A stretch of DNA of 50,781 nucleotides, taken from a bacterium (GTDB lineage Bacteria; Hydrothermota; UBA3073; JACQXS01; JAGMCI01). The notes below the pieces were generated by a model that was not told where the DNA came from, searched no databases, and saw nothing but the letters and a program-made list of their open reading frames with translations. The stretch spans positions 1 through 50,781 of the forward strand of contig JASEGA010000015.1 of the NCBI GenBank assembly GCA_030018315.1, given 5' to 3'. This document shows positions 11,879 to 43,820 of this stretch, piece after piece. The translations under genes and the position numbers were made by a program. Each line of letters starts with the position of its first letter. Positions within the stretch are counted from its first letter, which is position 1.

Positions 11879-12867
11879 CAGTTATTGGTATCGATACTTC
11901 TTGCGACGATACCTCTGCTGCTTGTATAAGAGGTAAGCAAATCCTATCAAATATTGTCTTTTCACAGCTATTTCATTCCAGATATGGAGGTGTGGTACCC
12001 GAACTTGCCTCAAGAGATCATATTAAAAATATCGTCCCTGTGGTAGAGGAGGCACTTAAACCTGTAAATCTATCGGAGCTAAATGGTATTGGAGTAACTT
12101 ACGGACCCGGTCTCATCGGCTCCTTACTTATTGGGCTTTCGTTTGCAAAATCGATTAGTTATGTACTTAGGATTCCATTTTATGGGGTAAACCACATTGA
12201 AGGTCACATATTCTCTTTATTTATTGAGAGAGAGATTAAAACACCATTTGTTGCACTTATAGTATCAGGTGCACATACAGAACTTATACTTGTAAAAAGG
12301 AAAGGGAATTATAAACTTATAGGCACTACTTTAGATGATGCAGCTGGTGAGTCATTTGATAAGGTTGCAAGACTGCTCGGTTTCACCTATCCTGGTGGTC
12401 CGGTGATTGAAAAACTTGCTCTCAGTGGCAATCGTCAAGCAATAAGGTTTCCGAGAGCCGAAGTTGCTGGGTATGATTTTAGCTTTAGTGGACTTAAGAC
12501 AGCTGTTCTTTATTACCTAAAGAAATGCAAAGCACAAAATATAAAATATAAAACTGCAGAGCTCTCAGATATAGCTGCTAGTTTTCAGGAGGCAGCTATT
12601 GATTCACTTGTAGATAAACTGATGGCTGCAGCAACCAGTTTTAAGATACCAAGAGTTGGAGTAGCTGGTGGTGTAGCAGCAAACTCAAGGCTTAGAGAGA
12701 AGTTAAAGGAGGTTGGAGAAGCTAAGGAAATAGAGGTATATTTTCCTAAAAGAGAATTTTGTACAGATAACGGAGTGATGATAGCTGTTTGTGCCCAATA
12801 CTATCTCAGCAAAGGTAAGACGTCAGAGTTCTCACTTAAGGCAAATCCCGGTGCATCGCTTGTATGA
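11872..12867 (+). CDS. tsaD: tRNA N6-adenosine threonylcarbamoyltransferase
   Basis: TsaD transfers the threonylcarbamoyl group to A37 of ANN-decoding tRNAs. The family N-terminus VIGIDTSCDDTSAAC is encoded from 11881, and the metal-binding HxxxH is in NHIEGHIFSL. GESFDKVARLLG, YPGGPVIEKLA and FSFSGLKTAVLYY are also typical. No ATG, GTG or TTG exists in frame between the upstream stop (11839) and this block. The next GTG (11986) would remove the ATP-binding strand. I therefore place the start at ATT 11872 (or ATA 11875) behind GAAGG, overlapping the ybbR-like stop, which gives 331 aa, the normal length. The gene overlaps the following acyltransferase by ATGA. Confidence 0.9.
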   Translation: MITVIGIDTSCDDTSAACIRGKQILSNIVFSQLFHSRYGGVVPELASRDHIKNIVPVVEEALKPVNLSELNGIGVTYGPGLIGSLLIGLSFAKSISYVLRIPFYGVNHIEGHIFSLFIEREIKTPFVALIVSGAHTELILVKRKGNYKLIGTTLDDAAGESFDKVARLLGFTYPGGPVIEKLALSGNRQAIRFPRAEVAGYDFSFSGLKTAVLYYLKKCKAQNIKYKTAELSDIAASFQEAAIDSLVDKLMAAATSFKIPRVGVAGGVAANSRLREKLKEVGEAKEIEVYFPKREFCTDNGVMIAVCAQYYLSKGKTSEFSLKANPGASLV

Positions 12868-13730
12868 AATATTATCTCATAAGAATTGGGATTATCCTAA
12901 AGAAAATACTACCTAATTTTTTAGCCTACTTAATTGCAATTACACTTGGCTATTTAGCTTATGTCATACTTGCACAAAGGAGAAAAATTCTTACACAAAA
13001 TATTAAACATCTTGTAGGCTCAAATAAATTGATAGGGACACGCCATGGCGTGTCCCTACTTGTAAAAGAGACATTCGTAAATTTTGCACTCGATTATATG
13101 AACTTTCTTGCTATACCATCAATGTCAATTACTCAAATAAAAGGAATTGGTAAAGCCCAAGGGACTTCTAATCTTGACAAAGCTCTATCACTTAAAAGAG
13201 GAGTAATCCTTGTAAGCGCGCATATTGGAGCTTGGGACCTCGCAGGTTGTTTCCTTACAGCAGTCGGTTATCCAACAATTACTATTGCAGAATCAAAAGG
13301 ACCGGGTGAAAAAATGTTCAAATTATATTCAAGACTGAGGGGAAAAACAGGTATGGAAGTTATCCGATTAGAAGATAGAGATGTTACAAATAGGGTGATA
13401 GAAAAATTGAAACAAAATAAAATACTCACTTTATTAGGAGATAGGGACTTAACAGGAAAAGGAGTAAAGGTAAAATTCTTGGGTAGCGAATATTTACTTC
13501 CAAAAGGACCTGCTTTATTATCTCTAAGATACGAAATTCCTATAGTTACAGGTTACTTTTTAAAAAAGAGGAAATGGTATACAGGAGTGATAGAACCTCA
13601 AATTGATTTTGTAAGAAGTGGTAATCTTAAAGAGGATATTAAGTGTTTAACTCAACTTATAGCAGAAAGATTAGAAATTGGAATAAAAACCTACCCAACT
13701 CAATGGTATGTATTTCAAATGAACTGGTAA
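12864..13730 (+). CDS. Lipid A biosynthesis-type lauroyl/myristoyl acyltransferase (LPLAT family)
   Basis: 288 aa. N-terminal membrane anchor (~16-37). The catalytic HxxxxD is H120-D125 in SAHIGAWDLAG, with the substrate block GDRDLTGKGVKVKFLG and PKGPALLSLRYEIPIV downstream, as in LpxL/HtrB enzymes that acylate lipid A at the inner membrane. It overlaps tsaD by 4 bp, so translation is probably coupled. Residues 59-65 (TRHGVSL) come from a 24-bp perfect palindrome in frame. The same heptapeptide occurs in CoaE of this window. Confidence 0.85.
   Translation: MKYYLIRIGIILKKILPNFLAYLIAITLGYLAYVILAQRRKILTQNIKHLVGSNKLIGTRHGVSLLVKETFVNFALDYMNFLAIPSMSITQIKGIGKAQGTSNLDKALSLKRGVILVSAHIGAWDLAGCFLTAVGYPTITIAESKGPGEKMFKLYSRLRGKTGMEVIRLEDRDVTNRVIEKLKQNKILTLLGDRDLTGKGVKVKFLGSEYLLPKGPALLSLRYEIPIVTGYFLKKRKWYTGVIEPQIDFVRSGNLKEDIKCLTQLIAERLEIGIKTYPTQWYVFQMNW
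13034..13057. repeat. 24-bp perfect palindrome (half AGGGACACGCCA) in the LPLAT gene
   Basis: A perfect dyad centred on CCATGG, inserted in frame and coding for TRHGVSL. A 20-bp perfect copy of the same element lies in coaE at 25835-25854, read in the same frame. Confidence 0.9.
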
Positions 13731-14544: not shown

Positions 14545-14994
14545 ATGGACAGGAAGTATCATCCATTGACAGAGTTTAGAGGAGTTGAAGATATAGTGGA
14601 CAGGACACTTTGGCGCTTTTTCTCAGATTTCTTTCCTGGTAGGTGGAGGAGACCGTGGGCAGAGGAAATAGCACCTGCATGTGACCTCATTGATAGGGGA
14701 GACCACCTTCTACTACGAGCTGAAGTACCTGGACTTAAAAAAGAGGATTTAGAGATATCTGTGGATGAGAGTTCTATTAGTTTAAAAGGTGAGATAAAGA
14801 AAAGTACTGAGGAGAAAGGTGAAACCTATTATCGGAGCGAGCGAAGTTACGGCTCATTCTCAAGGAGTATCACTTTTCCTACCGAAATAGACTCAAGTAA
14901 GACAGATGCTACCCTAAAAGACGGTATTCTTGAAGTTAAACTACCAAAGAAGAAAGAGAAGATAGCAAAGAAGGTTGAGATTAAGATTAAGTAG
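14545..14994 (+). CDS. Hsp20/alpha-crystallin small heat-shock protein
   Basis: 149 aa. An alpha-crystallin domain from ~45 to 140 (DRGDHLLLRAEVPGLKKEDL, GSFSRSITFPTEID) ends in the GILEVKLPK motif, followed by a Lys-rich tail. It acts as an ATP-independent holdase. A good AGGAGGTGA lies 7 nt before the ATG. A strong hairpin-plus-T terminator follows, so this gene ends the unit. No CIRCE-like operator is seen upstream. Confidence 0.95.
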   Translation: MDRKYHPLTEFRGVEDIVDRTLWRFFSDFFPGRWRRPWAEEIAPACDLIDRGDHLLLRAEVPGLKKEDLEISVDESSISLKGEIKKSTEEKGETYYRSERSYGSFSRSITFPTEIDSSKTDATLKDGILEVKLPKKKEKIAKKVEIKIK

Positions 14995-15016
14995 GGGTTT
15001 GATTAATCAAACCCCT
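14993..15016. repeat. 24-bp perfect palindrome (half AGGGGTTTGATT) at the hsp20 stop codon
   Basis: It overlaps the TAG stop (14992-14994). The same element, as 18-20 bp of dyad, lies inside two coding sequences at 31421-31440 and 33927-33946, where it encodes GLINQT. Confidence 0.9.
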
Positions 15017-15027
15017 ATAATTTGGGA

Positions 15028-25719: not shown

Positions 25720-25741
25720 ATCATTGATGCAAACAGAGATA

Positions 25742-26368
25742 TCATTTTACACTTACTACAATTTTAGACCATACTTTTTTTGTCTCTTTACAAAGAGTTT
25801 CCAAACTACCATTGTTTTCAATTACAATTGGTAGGGACACGCCATGGCGTGTCCTCACATTATCAAGTAACTGGCTCTTTATTCTGATATCTGCTTCCTT
25901 TCGAGTATATCCCATTTTTAAAAGCCGAGCCAATTTTGTCTCATAATTGGCTTTAACGAGAATAACCTTATCAAACCAGCTCTCTATCTGCCACTCGTAT
26001 ACCAGTGCACAGTCTACAATCAGTACCTTTCTGTTTACCTCAATGATTGATGTTCTAAACGATTCTATTTGCTTTTTTAGCTCAAAAAGGAGCGGTGGAT
26101 GGACAATAGACTCGAGGAGCCTCATTTTATTACGATTTCCAAATACAAGAGTGCTGAGCTTCTTCCTATCAACTTTGTCTCTGTCTACATCAATGATACT
26201 GCTGCCAAAAGCCTCAACTAACTCATCTTTTTTTTGTTCAAGTACATTCCAGCCCATTCTGTCTACATCAATGACAGCTACATCAATGATACCTCTATTT
26301 ACCTCAATGATAAATGAAACTACTGTCGATTTACCAGCTCCAATGCCACCAGTTACACCTATTACCAT
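25742..26368 (-). CDS. coaE: Dephospho-CoA kinase with repeat-derived insertions
   Basis: 208 aa. P-loop GVTGGIGAGKST (4-15) starts the last enzyme of CoA synthesis. LSTLVFGNRNKMRLLESIVHPPL and KVLIVDCALVYEWQIESWFDKVILV are typical. Three kinds of repeat DNA are built into the frame: IIEVNR-type segments (SFIIEVNRGIID and TSIIEVNRK) from CTGTTTACCTCAATGAT copies; IDVDR segments that match or overwrite the usual VIDADxI and ILDxDG positions; and TRHGVSL (173-179) from the palindrome shared with the LPLAT gene. All leave the frame intact, so the enzyme may still work. It follows polA by 28 bp, a gap made of the same repeat. Confidence 0.9.
   Translation of the reverse strand: MVIGVTGGIGAGKSTVVSFIIEVNRGIIDVAVIDVDRMGWNVLEQKKDELVEAFGSSIIDVDRDKVDRKKLSTLVFGNRNKMRLLESIVHPPLLFELKKQIESFRTSIIEVNRKVLIVDCALVYEWQIESWFDKVILVKANYETKLARLLKMGYTRKEADIRIKSQLLDNVRTRHGVSLPIVIENNGSLETLCKETKKVWSKIVVSVK
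25835..25854. repeat. 20-bp perfect palindrome (half GGACACGCCA) in coaE
   Basis: Second copy of the element at 13034-13057, again centred on CCATGG and again read as TRHGVS. Confidence 0.9.
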
Positions 26369-26410
26369 ACCTCTGTCTATATCAATGACACTCTGTTTAC
26401 CTCAATTCAT
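26031..26410. repeat. Cluster of seven TCATTGATGTAGACAGAG-type direct repeats in coaE and at the polA stop
   Basis: Copies on the plus strand: 26031 (CTGTTTACCTCAATGAT), 26181 and 26259 (CTGTCTACATCAATGA), 26275 (CAGCTACATCAATGAT), 26293 (TATTTACCTCAATGAT), 26371 (CTGTCTATATCAATGAC) and 26391 (CTGTTTACCTCAAT). More copies lie directly after the stops of the PorV-like gene (32889-32907) and the TonB receptor gene (36860-36878). Confidence 0.8.
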
Positions 26411-28982
26411 ACCAGTTATCACCTACTCCTATCCTTACCACTACAGGGACTTCAAGTGGTAATGCATGCTTCATCTCATACTCTACAATAGATTTTACAT
26501 CCTCTACCTCTTCCTCAGGAACTTCAAATACAAGCTCATCATGTACCTGCATTATTATACGGGACTTGAATTTATGTAGCTTGTCGTAAATTCTTATCAT
26601 TGCTACCTTTATCATATCAGCTGCTGAGCCCTGAATAGGTGCATTGATAGCAGCACGCTCAGCAAATTCCCTTACACGAACATTATCTGAATTTATACCT
26701 TCTATCCAGCGCTTCCTACCAAGTAGTGTCTCAACATAACCAGTTTTACGTGCAAACTCTAAGTCTTTATCTATCCATTGTTTGACTCCCGGATATGTAA
26801 GAAAATAAGCAGCTATAAAAGTAGATGCCTCGTCTACATTTATACCAAGACGCTGTGATAACCCATAAGGACCCATCCCATAAATAATGCCAAAATTTAC
26901 TACCTTTGCATTGTCACGCTCCAATGAACTTACACGAGACTCAGGTATATTAAAGATTAATGAAGCAGTCTTTGTATGGATATCAGCACCAGAATTAAAG
27001 GCTTCAATTAGAGTGGAGTCTTTTGAAACTGATGCAAGTATCCTGAGCTCTATTTGTGAATAATCAGCTGAAAGAATACGCCAGCCACGATGCGCAATAA
27101 AACCCATACGAATTTCACGCTTCGGAATATTTTGAAGGTTTGGATTAGATGAAGATAACCTACCAGTAGCAGTGCCAGTTTGCTGCCAATTAGTATGTAC
27201 CCTGTCATACGAATCAGCAAGCAGTGGAATAGCATCAAGATAAGTAGACTTTAACTTGAACAGGTCGCGATACTCCAGAATCTTACGTGGTAGCTCATAA
27301 TCTTTGGCTAATTCTGTAAGAACATCTTGGTCAGTTGAATACCCTGTCTTTTTACGCTTTGACTTGGGTAGATTGAGCTTGTCAAAAAGTATATTGCTTA
27401 ATTGAATAGGTGACCTTAAATTAAAACGCTCTCCTGATAAAGAGTAAATTTCTGCCTCAATCTTATTTAATTTTAGCTCAACTTTACTGGATTCGGACAA
27501 AAAATAATTCTTGTCTATAAGGACACCTATGCGTTCCATATTTGAAAGAACACGAGCTAAAGGAATCTCTACATTAGTAAAAAGAGAGATTAGACCCTTA
27601 CTTTCAAGCTCAGTTTTCAGAATATTATAAAGAGGATAACACACAAAAGCACTATCCATAAGCCAGCTTACTATTTTATCTTGCCTGTCGGCAGACAGGT
27701 GGTCAGGAATACCTGTAAAACCTGCCTGACGGCAAGGCAGGTTTGCATTTTTCTTGCCTTTACCAGTATCTAAACTAGAAAGTGGAAAGCCAAGCCAAGT
27801 GAGAGCAATGTTATCAATAGAGTGCTCCTTTAATTCAGGCTTTAATAAATAATCTGCTATACTTAGGTCAAAAACATTGCCTTTAATATCAAATTTTTTA
27901 AACAATGATTTAGAATCGGGTACAATTTTACAAATGGATGGATTTTCTACCAGTGATACAATTACATTTTCTACCCCCTTACCTACAAAAACTATGCCTT
28001 TTTCGTTAGCAAGAGAAAAATAATAGCCAAATGACACTATACTTACTTTGTCCTTTACTGATTTTAAAAACTTAGCCAAATCTGTTACAACTTTGTATTC
28101 TTCAGGCTTGTAATGTAGGGGCAACTCTTGTGGTTGCCCAGACGTCAGTTTCTTTATTATTGAGAAAAACTCAAGCTCAGTTAAAATTTTGAAAAGTGCT
28201 TTGTTATCAGGAACACCTATTTTCAAATCATTAGGCTCTATTTTAAGAGATGCTTCAGTTTGAATAGTTGCAAGCTCCTTTGAAAGTAAAGCTTGCTCCT
28301 TAAAATTATTAAGAGCTGACTTCACCTTTTCTGATTCAATTTTAGATATGTTTTCAAATATATCTTTTAGACTACCAAATTGTGAGATTAATTTAGTAGC
28401 TGTCTTATTACCTATTCCTGGGACACCTGGAATATTATCTATTGTATCACCTGTAAGACCAAGAAAATCAGTCACCCATTGTGAAGGTATACCTAATTTA
28501 GATTGAGCTGAAACAAATTCAAAACTGCGTGGACTGAGAATCTTTATACCGAGAAATTCAAGCTGTAGAAAATCTTTGTCATCAGAAAAAATTATCACAT
28601 CAAATCCTTTAGAATGTGCCTTCTTTGCTATTGTCCCTATAACATCATCTGCTTCTATACCCTCCTCTTCAATCAGCTGTATACCTAAACACTTGACAAT
28701 TTCTTTTATTACAGGAAGCTGTGAAACTAACTCTGGAGGTGCTTTTGGACGAGTAGCTTTGTATTCCTTAAATTGTTTATGCCTAAAACTAGGTGCACTG
28801 GAGTCAAAGCTAACAAGTAAATATTCTGGTTTCTTTTCGTTTAATAATTTAAGTAGAGAATTCACAAACCCAAATACAGCAGAGGTATTTTCACCTTTTG
28901 AATTACGGAGCGGGTTGCGAATGAATGCAAAGAATGAGCGATAGGCAAGCGAAGTGCCATCTACAAGCCATAAAGTCTTCAC
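26397..28982 (-). CDS. polA: DNA polymerase I
   Basis: 861 aa. The 5'-3' exonuclease domain is ~1-270 (EGIEADDVIGTIA, SDDKDFLQL, GVPGIGNKTATKLI). The 3'-5' exonuclease-like region ~290-470 lacks the visible DxE acidic pair and is probably inactive. The polymerase domain has motif A DYSQIELR (D640), motif B RDNAKVVNFGIIYG (R689, K693) and motif C VHDE (H814-D815). Three palindromic inserts are in frame: GQPQELP (282-288) in the linker, and NLPCRQAG plus LSADRQ (414-434) in the degenerate exonuclease domain. The last codons and TAA lie in another repeat. Overlaps the upstream PAP2 gene by 4 bp. Confidence 0.97.
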   Translation of the reverse strand: MKTLWLVDGTSLAYRSFFAFIRNPLRNSKGENTSAVFGFVNSLLKLLNEKKPEYLLVSFDSSAPSFRHKQFKEYKATRPKAPPELVSQLPVIKEIVKCLGIQLIEEEGIEADDVIGTIAKKAHSKGFDVIIFSDDKDFLQLEFLGIKILSPRSFEFVSAQSKLGIPSQWVTDFLGLTGDTIDNIPGVPGIGNKTATKLISQFGSLKDIFENISKIESEKVKSALNNFKEQALLSKELATIQTEASLKIEPNDLKIGVPDNKALFKILTELEFFSIIKKLTSGQPQELPLHYKPEEYKVVTDLAKFLKSVKDKVSIVSFGYYFSLANEKGIVFVGKGVENVIVSLVENPSICKIVPDSKSLFKKFDIKGNVFDLSIADYLLKPELKEHSIDNIALTWLGFPLSSLDTGKGKKNANLPCRQAGFTGIPDHLSADRQDKIVSWLMDSAFVCYPLYNILKTELESKGLISLFTNVEIPLARVLSNMERIGVLIDKNYFLSESSKVELKLNKIEAEIYSLSGERFNLRSPIQLSNILFDKLNLPKSKRKKTGYSTDQDVLTELAKDYELPRKILEYRDLFKLKSTYLDAIPLLADSYDRVHTNWQQTGTATGRLSSSNPNLQNIPKREIRMGFIAHRGWRILSADYSQIELRILASVSKDSTLIEAFNSGADIHTKTASLIFNIPESRVSSLERDNAKVVNFGIIYGMGPYGLSQRLGINVDEASTFIAAYFLTYPGVKQWIDKDLEFARKTGYVETLLGRKRWIEGINSDNVRVREFAERAAINAPIQGSAADMIKVAMIRIYDKLHKFKSRIIMQVHDELVFEVPEEEVEDVKSIVEYEMKHALPLEVPVVVRIGVGDNWYELR
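27684..27744. repeat. Bipartite palindromic element inside polA
   Basis: Part B is CCTGTC-GGCA-GACAGG (27684-27699). Part A has 10-bp arms AAACCTGCCT/AGGCAGGTTT (27718-27744). Together they encode about 21 residues in frame. The composite is the reverse complement of the pair at the ispG 3' end (21800-21853). Confidence 0.85.
28119..28139. repeat. In-frame palindrome GGGCAAC/GTTGCCC in polA
   Basis: 7-bp perfect arms with a 7-nt loop, encoding GQPQELP at residues 282-288, in the linker between the two N-terminal domains. Confidence 0.75.
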
Positions 28983-30874: not shown

Positions 30875-30982
30875 CGGGAGTTTATCTCCCGCTTAAAAGA
30901 ATCTACTCCAAGACCAAAAGAGGTAATTTTACTGTTGTCCCTAGTGTCTCTACTGTCATTGCGAGCGATAGCGAAGCAATCT
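30875..30982. repeat. Two intergenic palindromic repeats
   Basis: CGGGAG-TTTAT-CTCCCG (30875-30891) and the imperfect inverted repeat TGTCATTGCGAGCGATAGCG...GCAATCT (30955-30982). The second is the same family as the element translated in the gene at 33989 and the one between korA and korB. Confidence 0.7.
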
Positions 30983-30986
30983 ATCC

Positions 30987-31520
30987 TCAAAGCTTCTTTC
31001 TTGGTTCCACTATTACTTCCTTTTTTGATAAATTATAGCCAATAAATGCACCTATAGGTAGAGAAAAGCCTATAAGTTTGTCAAATTCACTTGATTTTAT
31101 TTTAAGCACTCTTTTTGCCCCAATCAACACTAATGGGAATGAAACTGCCCCAATAAGTGTAGTAAAATACCTACTTTCATCATACTGTTGCCCCACTTTC
31201 CATACCCCAAATGTAGCTCCAAGTGTATACAGCGAGAAGCCACCGATTAAGGCAGCATCTTCTGTCCCCCATATCGCATAGCCTAATATAGTGCCTATGC
31301 ACCAGCCAATACCACCAAGGACATAGCCAGCAGCCAGTTCATTTAAGTACTTGGAGTAGGTTGGAAATTTAGCAGTTGTATCTACTGTCCAAACTGGTTG
31401 AGATGAAGCTAAAAATGTAGGGGTTTGATTTATCAAACCCGAATATTTATTGGACACAATAACTTGTGCCTCCTCATTATTAATACATAGCAAAAAGAGA
31501 ATAGCACTCCAAGAAATCAT
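30987..31520 (-). CDS. Hypothetical exported/membrane protein
   Basis: 177 aa. N-terminal hydrophobic segment (SWSAILFLLCI), then glycine-rich hydrophobic stretches (LAAGYVLGGIGWCIGTILGYAIWG, LIGGFSLYTLGATFGVW, FDKLIGFSLPIGAFIGYNL), perhaps a small outer- or inner-membrane protein. I do not recognise the family. Residues 28-34 (GLINQTP) come from an in-frame palindrome just after the signal-like segment. It has its own near-leaderless promoter. Confidence 0.6.
   Translation of the reverse strand: MISWSAILFLLCINNEEAQVIVSNKYSGLINQTPTFLASSQPVWTVDTTAKFPTYSKYLNELAAGYVLGGIGWCIGTILGYAIWGTEDAALIGGFSLYTLGATFGVWKVGQQYDESRYFTTLIGAVSFPLVLIGAKRVLKIKSSEFDKLIGFSLPIGAFIGYNLSKKEVIVEPRKKL
31421..31440. repeat. 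In-frame palindrome GGGTTTGAT/ATCAAACCC
   Basis: 9-bp arms around TT, encoding GLINQT; copy of the element at 14993-15016. Confidence 0.85.
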
Positions 31521-32853: not shown

Positions 32854-32888
32854 CTAACACCTCCTTTAATCATTGGGATAGACTCAAC

Positions 32889-32907
32889 CTCTGTCTACAT
32901 CAATGAT
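32889..32907. repeat. Copy of the ATCATTGATGTAGACAGAG repeat at a gene end
   Basis: Directly abuts the stop codon of the PorV-like gene (32908-32910). Same sequence as the copies in coaE. Confidence 0.8.
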
Positions 32908-33972
32908 TTAAAATACAAACCCAAGTGACACACGATGCATCAAGCCAAGCCGACCAAGGTCTTGACCTGCATAGTCAACTTTAAGAAATTGACCCCCAAG
33001 CCCATAATTGATACCCATACCAAAAGTGAAAGCTTCACGACTATTTAACCTGTCCTTATACATACCGGGATTGTATTTATAGCCAGCTCTTAATGCTAAA
33101 ATTTTATTCCATACATATTCAGCACCAAACATTAATAATTCTTTGCTATCGTTAGGATGAGAAAAGTCAAAAGAGGCAGTCAGAAGATTTTGCTCATCCT
33201 CTAATAGGTTATAAGCAAACCCCATTATGAAATTAAGAGGAAGAGGATAAGCGGAGGTCATTTTTTCTACATCCGTTGTTGCATAATTACTTGGCCATGA
33301 TGTATCTGACCAAAGAACTTGTAGTTGCTTTCCATGAAATGCCATGTCTGGACCAAAGTTTGATATCATCAGTGCCCATCTGAGGCTACCGAAACCCGGT
33401 CGATACAGTGTACCAAAATCAAAACATAACCCATTTGAAGACATATCCCAAATCGCTTCTTGAATATATTTTGCATTCATACCAAATGAGAACCTATCTG
33501 TGAAGTTCCTGGCATAAGAGAGAGCAAAAGCAAGGTCACTTGCACCAAACTTGTTTCCTGTGCTATCCGGCTCGTATATTGTTGTTTCTTCCATCTCACC
33601 CATACTTAGAACTGTAACACCTACACCTACTGACCCAAATAATCCTAATGGAGCTACATAGCCAACAAAGTCGTTTCTAATGTCTGCAATCCAATCAACA
33701 TCGCAAATAAGTAATTCAGGCCTTTCCATTAACGCTATACCTGCCGGATTCCAATATAAAGCAGAAGCATCATTTGCAAGTGCAGTGTAGGCACCACCCA
33801 TCCCCATTGCACGACTTCCTATTCCTATTTTCAAAAACTGTGCACCTGACATGCCAACCTTTGAAAGCCCAAATGATAAACATGGATAGAGACAGAAAAA
33901 AAGCATAGATAAACACAGAGTTGTAAGGGTTTGATTAATCAAACCCCTACATAATTTTGAGCTTACTGACAT
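32908..33972 (-). CDS. PorV/PorQ-family outer-membrane beta-barrel protein
   Basis: 354 aa. AQFLKIGIGSRAMGMGGAYTALANDASALYWNPAGIA is the PorV/PorQ (UPF0164) signature, followed by alternating beta-barrel strands and a C-terminal aromatic (LGFVF). In Bacteroidetes PorV receives type IX cargo after the outer-membrane step. Three or four window genes carry matching C-terminal domains, so this may be the shuttle for them. Part of the signal peptide (RGLINQTL, 9-16) is encoded by a palindrome. Shine-Dalgarno AGGAGG at the right distance. Confidence 0.8.
   Translation of the reverse strand: MSVSSKLCRGLINQTLTTLCLSMLFFCLYPCLSFGLSKVGMSGAQFLKIGIGSRAMGMGGAYTALANDASALYWNPAGIALMERPELLICDVDWIADIRNDFVGYVAPLGLFGSVGVGVTVLSMGEMEETTIYEPDSTGNKFGASDLAFALSYARNFTDRFSFGMNAKYIQEAIWDMSSNGLCFDFGTLYRPGFGSLRWALMISNFGPDMAFHGKQLQVLWSDTSWPSNYATTDVEKMTSAYPLPLNFIMGFAYNLLEDEQNLLTASFDFSHPNDSKELLMFGAEYVWNKILALRAGYKYNPGMYKDRLNSREAFTFGMGINYGLGGQFLKVDYAGQDLGRLGLMHRVSLGFVF
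33927..33946. repeat. In-frame 20-bp perfect palindrome (half GGGTTTGATT) in the PorV-like signal peptide
   Basis: Third copy of the GLINQT element, here forming the n-region/h-region junction of a signal peptide. Confidence 0.9.
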
Positions 33973-36833: not shown

Positions 36834-36878
36834 TGGACGGGGTTATCCCGCCTCTACATCTCTGTTTACATCAATGAT
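36834..36878. repeat. Intergenic GGACGGGGTTATCCCG palindrome and a copy of the CATTGATGTAAACAGAG repeat
   Basis: Lies between the TonB receptor gene (stop at 36880) and the next gene. The GGACGGGGTTA element also occurs at 39826-39848. Confidence 0.7.
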
Positions 36879-39735: not shown

Positions 39736-39848
39736 TTGCCCTACTACACATTATTCCAGTAGGGCAAACCTTTGGGTTTGCTTTATTTACTTGCCCTACT
39801 AAATTACTGTGATTGCAACCAGTAGGGACGGGGTTACCCCGCTCCTAT
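39736..39848. repeat. Intergenic island of nested palindromes
   Basis: AGTAGGGCAA (39758-39767) pairs with TTGCCCTACT (39791-39800), enclosing GCAAACC/GGTTTGC (39764-39781). A further TTGCCCTACT lies at 39737, and CGGGGTTACCCCG with flanks AGGGA/TCCT ends at 39848. No gene is present; it separates the sialidase-fold gene from the TonB receptor gene. Confidence 0.75.
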
Positions 39849-43747: not shown

Positions 43748-43779
43748 TTTTCTATTTCCTAATTCCTACTACTTTTTAC

Positions 43780-43820
43780 TGTCATTGCGACCACGAGCAA
43801 AGCGTGGTGGGAAGCAATCT
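43780..43820. repeat. TGTCATTGCGACCACG...GAAGCAATCT repeat between korA and korB
   Basis: Outer ends ATTGC/GCAAT with an inner stem CCACG/CGTGG. A hairpin inside a polycistronic kor mRNA; may influence mRNA stability. Confidence 0.7.

Follow-up and report, generated by a model that had tools for sequence, protein, structure and literature searches.

The coaE gene of a candidate division WOR-3 bacterium carries several copies of a 17-bp repeat that belongs to a dispersed family with two arm types, A and B; A arms also pair as tandem dimers, and some copies within coaE add residues to the protein in-frame. We estimate a probability of roughly 75% that these copies are pieces of a REP-like, non-autonomous A/B repeat family that entered coaE repeatedly, each time in-frame. 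The stretch analysed, here called the window, is 50,781 nucleotides long, and its features of interest are listed in Table 1.

Table 1. Genes, repeat arms and palindromes of the window, in window coordinates; mm, mismatches.
Feature	Position	Strand	Sequence	Description
coaE	25742..26368	-		Dephospho-CoA kinase, 208 aa, open frame with putatively inserted repeat peptides; Pfam CoaE 8.3e-29 and alignment to relatives
polA	26397..28982	-		Upstream neighbour of coaE; stop codon inside copy 1
Copy 1	26392..26408	-	GAATTGAGGTAAACAGA	A1-type arm, 2 mm; gives polA's final codons and TAA stop
Copy 2	26372..26388	-	TCATTGATATAGACAGA	A2-type arm, 1 mm; ends right before coaE ATG
Copy 3	26294..26310	-	TCATTGAGGTAAATAGA	1 mm; encodes IIEVNR, extra relative to other CoaE
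Copy 4	about 26279..26289	-	TCATTGATGTA	Partial (11 bp); encodes IIDV; second half of the dimer with copy 3
Copy 5	26258..26274	-	TCATTGATGTAGACAGA	0 mm; exactly on native V/I-I-D-V-D-K/R motif of CoaE
Copy 6	26180..26196	-	TCATTGATGTAGACAGA	0 mm; encodes IIDVDR; loop of variable length among relatives
Copy 7	26030..26046	-	TCATTGAGGTAAACAGA	0 mm; encodes IIEVNR just before VLIVDCAL strand
Copy 8	25721..25737	+	TCATTGATGCAAACAGA	Inverted; between coaE stop and next gene
GTAG-tagged palindrome	25831..25858		GTAGGGACACGCCATGGCGTGTCC(TCAC)	Second repeat family in coaE; encodes VRTRHGVSLP
A-arm copy	32890..32906	-		1 nt past stop of PorV/FadL-like gene
B-type partner arm	32870..32886	+		2 mm; inverted hairpin with 32890-32906
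A-arm copy	36861..36877	-		2 nt past stop of TonB-dependent receptor gene
Palindrome	13032-13059		GTAGGGACACGCCATGGCGTGTCCCTAC	5' tag here ATAG; in-frame in LpxL-type acyltransferase gene 12864-13730 (+)
GTAG palindromes	14991-15022; 31417-31448; 33923-33954

The only match for a dephospho-CoA kinase in its own genome (G000), coaE encodes a protein that scores 101 bits against Pfam PF01121 (curated cut-off 27) and keeps both the P-loop GGIGAGKST and the DxD motif VIDVD expected of CoaE. On the minus strand of 26030-26408 we found six 17-bp matches to TCATTGANGTANACAGA at 0-2 mismatches and one partial match, in agreement with a sequence-only reading of this DNA that had counted seven copies in about 380 bp. 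That reading had pictured coaE itself as packed with all seven; five are in coaE (four full and one partial), while copies 1 and 2 form the polA/coaE junction (26372-26408). The coaE copies share one orientation and one frame, reading I-I-D/E-V-D/N-R, and encode the IIEVNR and IDVDR peptides as originally described. It was also right that copies abut the stop codons of polA and of the PorV-like and TonB receptor genes (Table 1). Copies 1-2 and 3-4 are tandem dimers with an outer arm GAGGTAAAC and an inner arm GATGTAGAC (GATATAGAC in copy 2), and the same A1-A2 order occurs at the intergenic locus C18:33702 and at several loci of G001, the nearest relative, a genome of the same family. Across the window there are 10 matches at ≤3 mismatches compared with 2.3 ± 1.5 in shuffled sequence, and 0 of 100 shuffles reached 10. 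From the density, 0.017 copies would be expected in the 667-bp polA-coaE stretch, and the seven copies in 380 bp are the densest cluster found.

To place the copies within the protein, CoaE was aligned with the repeat-free CoaE of G001 and with those of other relatives, the nearest being 49% identical. Relative to G001, copies 3-4 (FIIEVNRGIIDVA-VIDVDR) give a net gain of 5 residues and copy 7 a gain of 6, and the GTAG palindrome GTAGGGACACGCCATGGCGTGTCC adds about 5; copy 6 replaces a loop that is variable in CoaE. Because copy 5 falls exactly on the native VIDVD(K/R) motif, this stretch was probably either overwritten by the repeat or used by it as landing homology; the motif DNA has 0 mismatches to the repeat here versus 4-6 in six relatives. 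The alignment thus bears out both halves of the earlier proposal, that some copies are extra and that one matches a native VIDAD-like motif, and conservation of every segment in repeat-free relatives, the outcome that would have spoken against it, did not arise. From these CoaE proteins, which are about 50% identical, we infer that repeats were inserted into coaE. An AlphaFold model of CoaE built from two sequences had a mean pLDDT of 36.5, so the loop positions rest on the alignments. The CoaE of candidate division WOR-3 isolate RS_16_8 (L097) is the same sequence as that of G001, and on this basis the bacterium is assigned to WOR-3.

A genome-wide count, suggested by the sequence-only reading, found the 17-bp repeat TCATTGAKGTARACAGA at 49 sites with ≤1 mismatch in the 1.95-Mb genome, compared with 0 for the reversed pattern. 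On this result, together with the in-frame extra residues, we rejected the idea that natural motif codons had clustered by chance. G001 has 9 such sites (control 0), and the phylum's other genomes give counts at about background. Since a scan at ≤3 mismatches returned 168 sites against 123 for the control, counts were restricted to ≤1 (sometimes 2) mismatches. Counting A and B arms together, 74 were found at ≤1 mismatch; by mechanical ORF calls on the draft assembly of 74 contigs, 38 are intergenic, 19 overlap gene ends and 17 lie inside ORFs. Thus 57 of 74 are intergenic or at gene ends, as against about 10% expected, and random 17-mers fall inside ORFs 86-91% of the time. Arms that overlap gene ends at times provide the start or stop codon.

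The A arm (TCATTGAKGTARACAGA) ends in ACAGA and the B arm (TCATTGAKRTARACTGA) in ACTGA. The two are often arranged head to head, forming imperfect A..B' hairpins of about 37-59 bp, and a four-arm form, A1-A2-loop-B2'-B1', spans 79-90 bp in G001 and at C1:107714. Inverted A/B hairpins had z scores of -2.2 to -6.0 against mononucleotide shuffles. Among 25 arm pairs, a mismatch almost always occurs at position 15 and mostly also at position 8; the two arms of a pair showed no covariation in excess of the consensus (p 0.88; 25 pairs). Because the mismatches are nearly constant and covariation is lacking, the arms point to fixed DNA recognition sequences as opposed to selected RNA pairing. An RNA hairpin under selection was rejected on the covariation result, and a known structured RNA on finding no Rfam match at gathering level.

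The reading frame of the copies follows largely from the repeat itself. A forward A arm is open in one frame only, giving XIDVDR/XIEVNR, and two reverse frames are also open; in a forward B arm a stop codon ends the XIDVDR/XIEVNR frame. The frame seen in coaE is therefore forced, while the common orientation is not fully accounted for. The suggestion that the repeat mimics the CoaE motif at the protein level is unneeded, since the single open forward frame is the frame observed.

CoaE is not the only protein that carries an arm. In the PNPase gene (pnp, L021 828-2879), an A arm encodes NFIIDVDRD in-frame, within the linker that precedes the helical domain, and the protein is 4-6 residues longer at this site than in relatives G001-G007, which suggests an insertion by comparison with proteins 71% identical. 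An ORF at C36:10894, which we take to be PheT, contains a match with 1 mismatch that encodes GYKIIDADRKD; this is probably native sequence that matches by chance. Additionally, two paralogous ORFs (L025 1413-1895 and L037 856-1644) each hold a pair of reversed B arms separated by 27 bp, reading SVYLND/TVYIND, either a candidate insertion or a native strand motif.

The GTAG palindrome of coaE is unrelated to the A/B family. It has 12 copies in the genome (control 0), of which 11 fall within an ORF or at its edge; these ORFs match CoaBC, RseC, LplA, MurB, GcvH, YidC and lipid A acyltransferase, among others. Palindromes of the GTAGGGACACGCCATGGCGTGTCCCTAC type, at 11 other genome sites, encode GTRHGVSLL or RDTPWRVPT in-frame in conserved genes; the acyltransferase of the window is 71% identical to that of G001 overall and has 8 more residues at the palindrome, the pattern of a plain insertion. 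Several GTAG palindrome families (TTTGATTAATCAAA, GCGGGGTAACCCCGC, GCAATTCATGAATTGC and others) together account for 51 sites genome-wide (L157-L203). Palindromes of the form GTAGGG..CCCTAC were inside ORFs in 35 of 50 cases checked, near the 80-85% expected for random placement, and in-frame GTAG palindromes encode peptides such as RGLINQTPT, VGAIHELPL and RGGVTPPL. GTAG palindromes are also numerous in several related WOR-3 genomes. At C6:59614, 61129 and 62174 and at C15:36861, a GTAG-type palindrome begins 2-3 nt past an A arm, as though GTAG elements favoured A/B elements as targets. A complete Y1_Tnp (RAYT-like) gene (L072 1478-2166) is bounded by inverted ends that resemble TGGTGTCAAGTCTG and bear no relation to the A/B arms; a second Y1_Tnp-like ORF contains a GTAGGGGCGGGGTAACCCCGCCCCTAC palindrome (L073/L157, C1:7703-7729). 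The window also holds, within its first ORF (31-1038, +), a set of three direct repeats, each about 140 bp long (122-521), and a further short dispersed repeat, TACTGTCATTGCGAGCGATAGCGAAGC and variants, at 30951-30977, 39805-39831 and 43777-43803.

The arms join as A...B' hairpins or nested four-arm palindromes, mainly between genes or at gene ends. We propose that coaE was entered repeatedly, by insertion or replacement, both by half-elements (A1-A2 dimers) and by lone A arms. They may survive there because the one open forward A frame gives a mild hydrophobic-acidic peptide (IIDVDR/IIEVNR), because the landing sites would be variable loops, and because out-of-frame events would be purged from a single-copy gene. 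A more specific form of this proposal, which we regard as rather doubtful, holds that an untagged two-arm repeat, with a range that seems limited to one WOR-3 family, spreads by half-elements entering genes in-frame, and that the VIDVD(K/R) codons of coaE served as a homology landing site, mobile DNA overwriting a conserved motif while the protein sequence was kept.

The shared orientation and frame of the coaE copies is more uniform than independent insertions over three open frame/orientation combinations predict, and some of them may therefore stem from local copying. Carried further, this becomes a possible, though less probable, account in which coaE received just one or two elements and its remaining copies were made locally, by template switching or gene conversion between coaE copies, with help from the similarity of the native IDVD(K/R) codons to the repeat. 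A single strand and frame for all copies, their crowding into 380 bp and the perfect match of copy 5 on the native motif speak for this account. Against it, both arm subtypes are present in coaE and follow the A1-A2 order found at distant loci, and the unrelated GTAG palindrome entered the gene as well.

Repeated entry of A/B pieces also has to be weighed against the improbable reading that the arms are maintained as putative sites to which a host DNA-binding protein attaches, with a role in regulation or in chromosome structure, the coaE cluster being incidental. The features that suggest DNA recognition over RNA folding (two fixed arm types, near-constant mismatches, no covariation) are consistent with such sites, as is a dimer spacing of 19-22 bp, near two helical turns; however, spread is the better fit to the patchy distribution, in two genomes of one family, and to in-gene copies with their added residues. 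Far less credible is the earlier suggestion of a coaE-like seed, by which native motif codons were copied out of coaE and spread through the genome. The repeat does read as the CoaE motif VIDVDR, but G001 has the family while its coaE is copy-free, a finding on which we rejected coaE as the seed; moreover, native motif DNA in relatives is 4-6 mismatches from the repeat, the coaE copies show the dimer layout seen at intergenic loci, and the family's B arm and hairpin/dimer architecture are absent from coaE. Least credible of all is selection at the protein level for functional duplications of the CoaE substrate-binding motif, since, for all the resemblance of the peptides to the native motif and the intact frame, the same DNA is also found in the PNPase gene and other ORFs and for the most part lies outside genes, with codons that match the DNA repeat and an A arm that offers one open forward frame only.

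Among known systems, REP elements (PMC3733652) are close in form: like the A/B arms, they are imperfect palindromes of 20-40 bp that occur as singles, dimers and clusters, near 3' gene ends, supplying stop codons, with some in ORFs and sometimes two per ORF. REPs inside ORFs, stop codons supplied by them and repeated insertion into one ORF have already been described (PMC3733652). As in REPs, the A/B family is a short imperfect stem-loop palindrome in many copies (the 49 sites at ≤1 mismatch) with a preference for intergenic regions and gene ends, 3' and 5' ends being pooled in our counts. Unlike REPs, it begins and ends at TCATTGA/TCAATGA, has two different 17-bp arms and occurs as half-elements in coaE. 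We do not class it as a GTAG/CGTC REP because it has neither a GTAG or CGTC tag nor a linked RAYT gene; a RAYT flanked by the A/B repeat was rejected, as neither of the two Y1_Tnp loci contains an A/B arm within its 3 kb. In-frame Rickettsia palindromic elements (RPE) have been described in genes (PMC10969869), and A/B arms resemble them in lying in-frame in unrelated conserved genes, as the CoaE and PNPase alignments indicate, and in adding a recurring peptide. RPEs, however, are palindromes of about 150 bp with a longer conserved peptide, whereas the in-gene A/B units are 17-bp arms or dimers of about 38 bp, add about 5-6 residues and reside in WOR-3. Enterobacterial RU elements (PMC2759123), compared by description, are likewise small mobile repeats that are mostly intergenic and in some cases fused in-frame to genes, but they are MITE-like units of 103-168 bp. 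A limited literature search on intragenic or coding palindromes and WOR-3 found no report of in-frame repeats of this kind in that division.

The best-known cases of selfish repeats lying in-frame within conserved genes come from Rickettsia and from a small number of REP-rich bacteria. The coaE case is best read as selfish-looking DNA within proteins, striking yet of a recognisable type, comparable to RPEs and intragenic REPs. Here, two unrelated short repeat families appear in core proteins of a little-studied candidate division, with A/B arms in CoaE and PNPase and GTAG palindromes in ORFs matching CoaBC, MurB, YidC and GcvH, among others. Where peptides such as IIDVDR, GTRHGVSLL and RGLINQTPT recur among proteins predicted from WOR-3, they should accordingly be treated with caution, as derived from repeats and not as motifs, and the genome offers a system for studying how proteins tolerate short mobile DNA.
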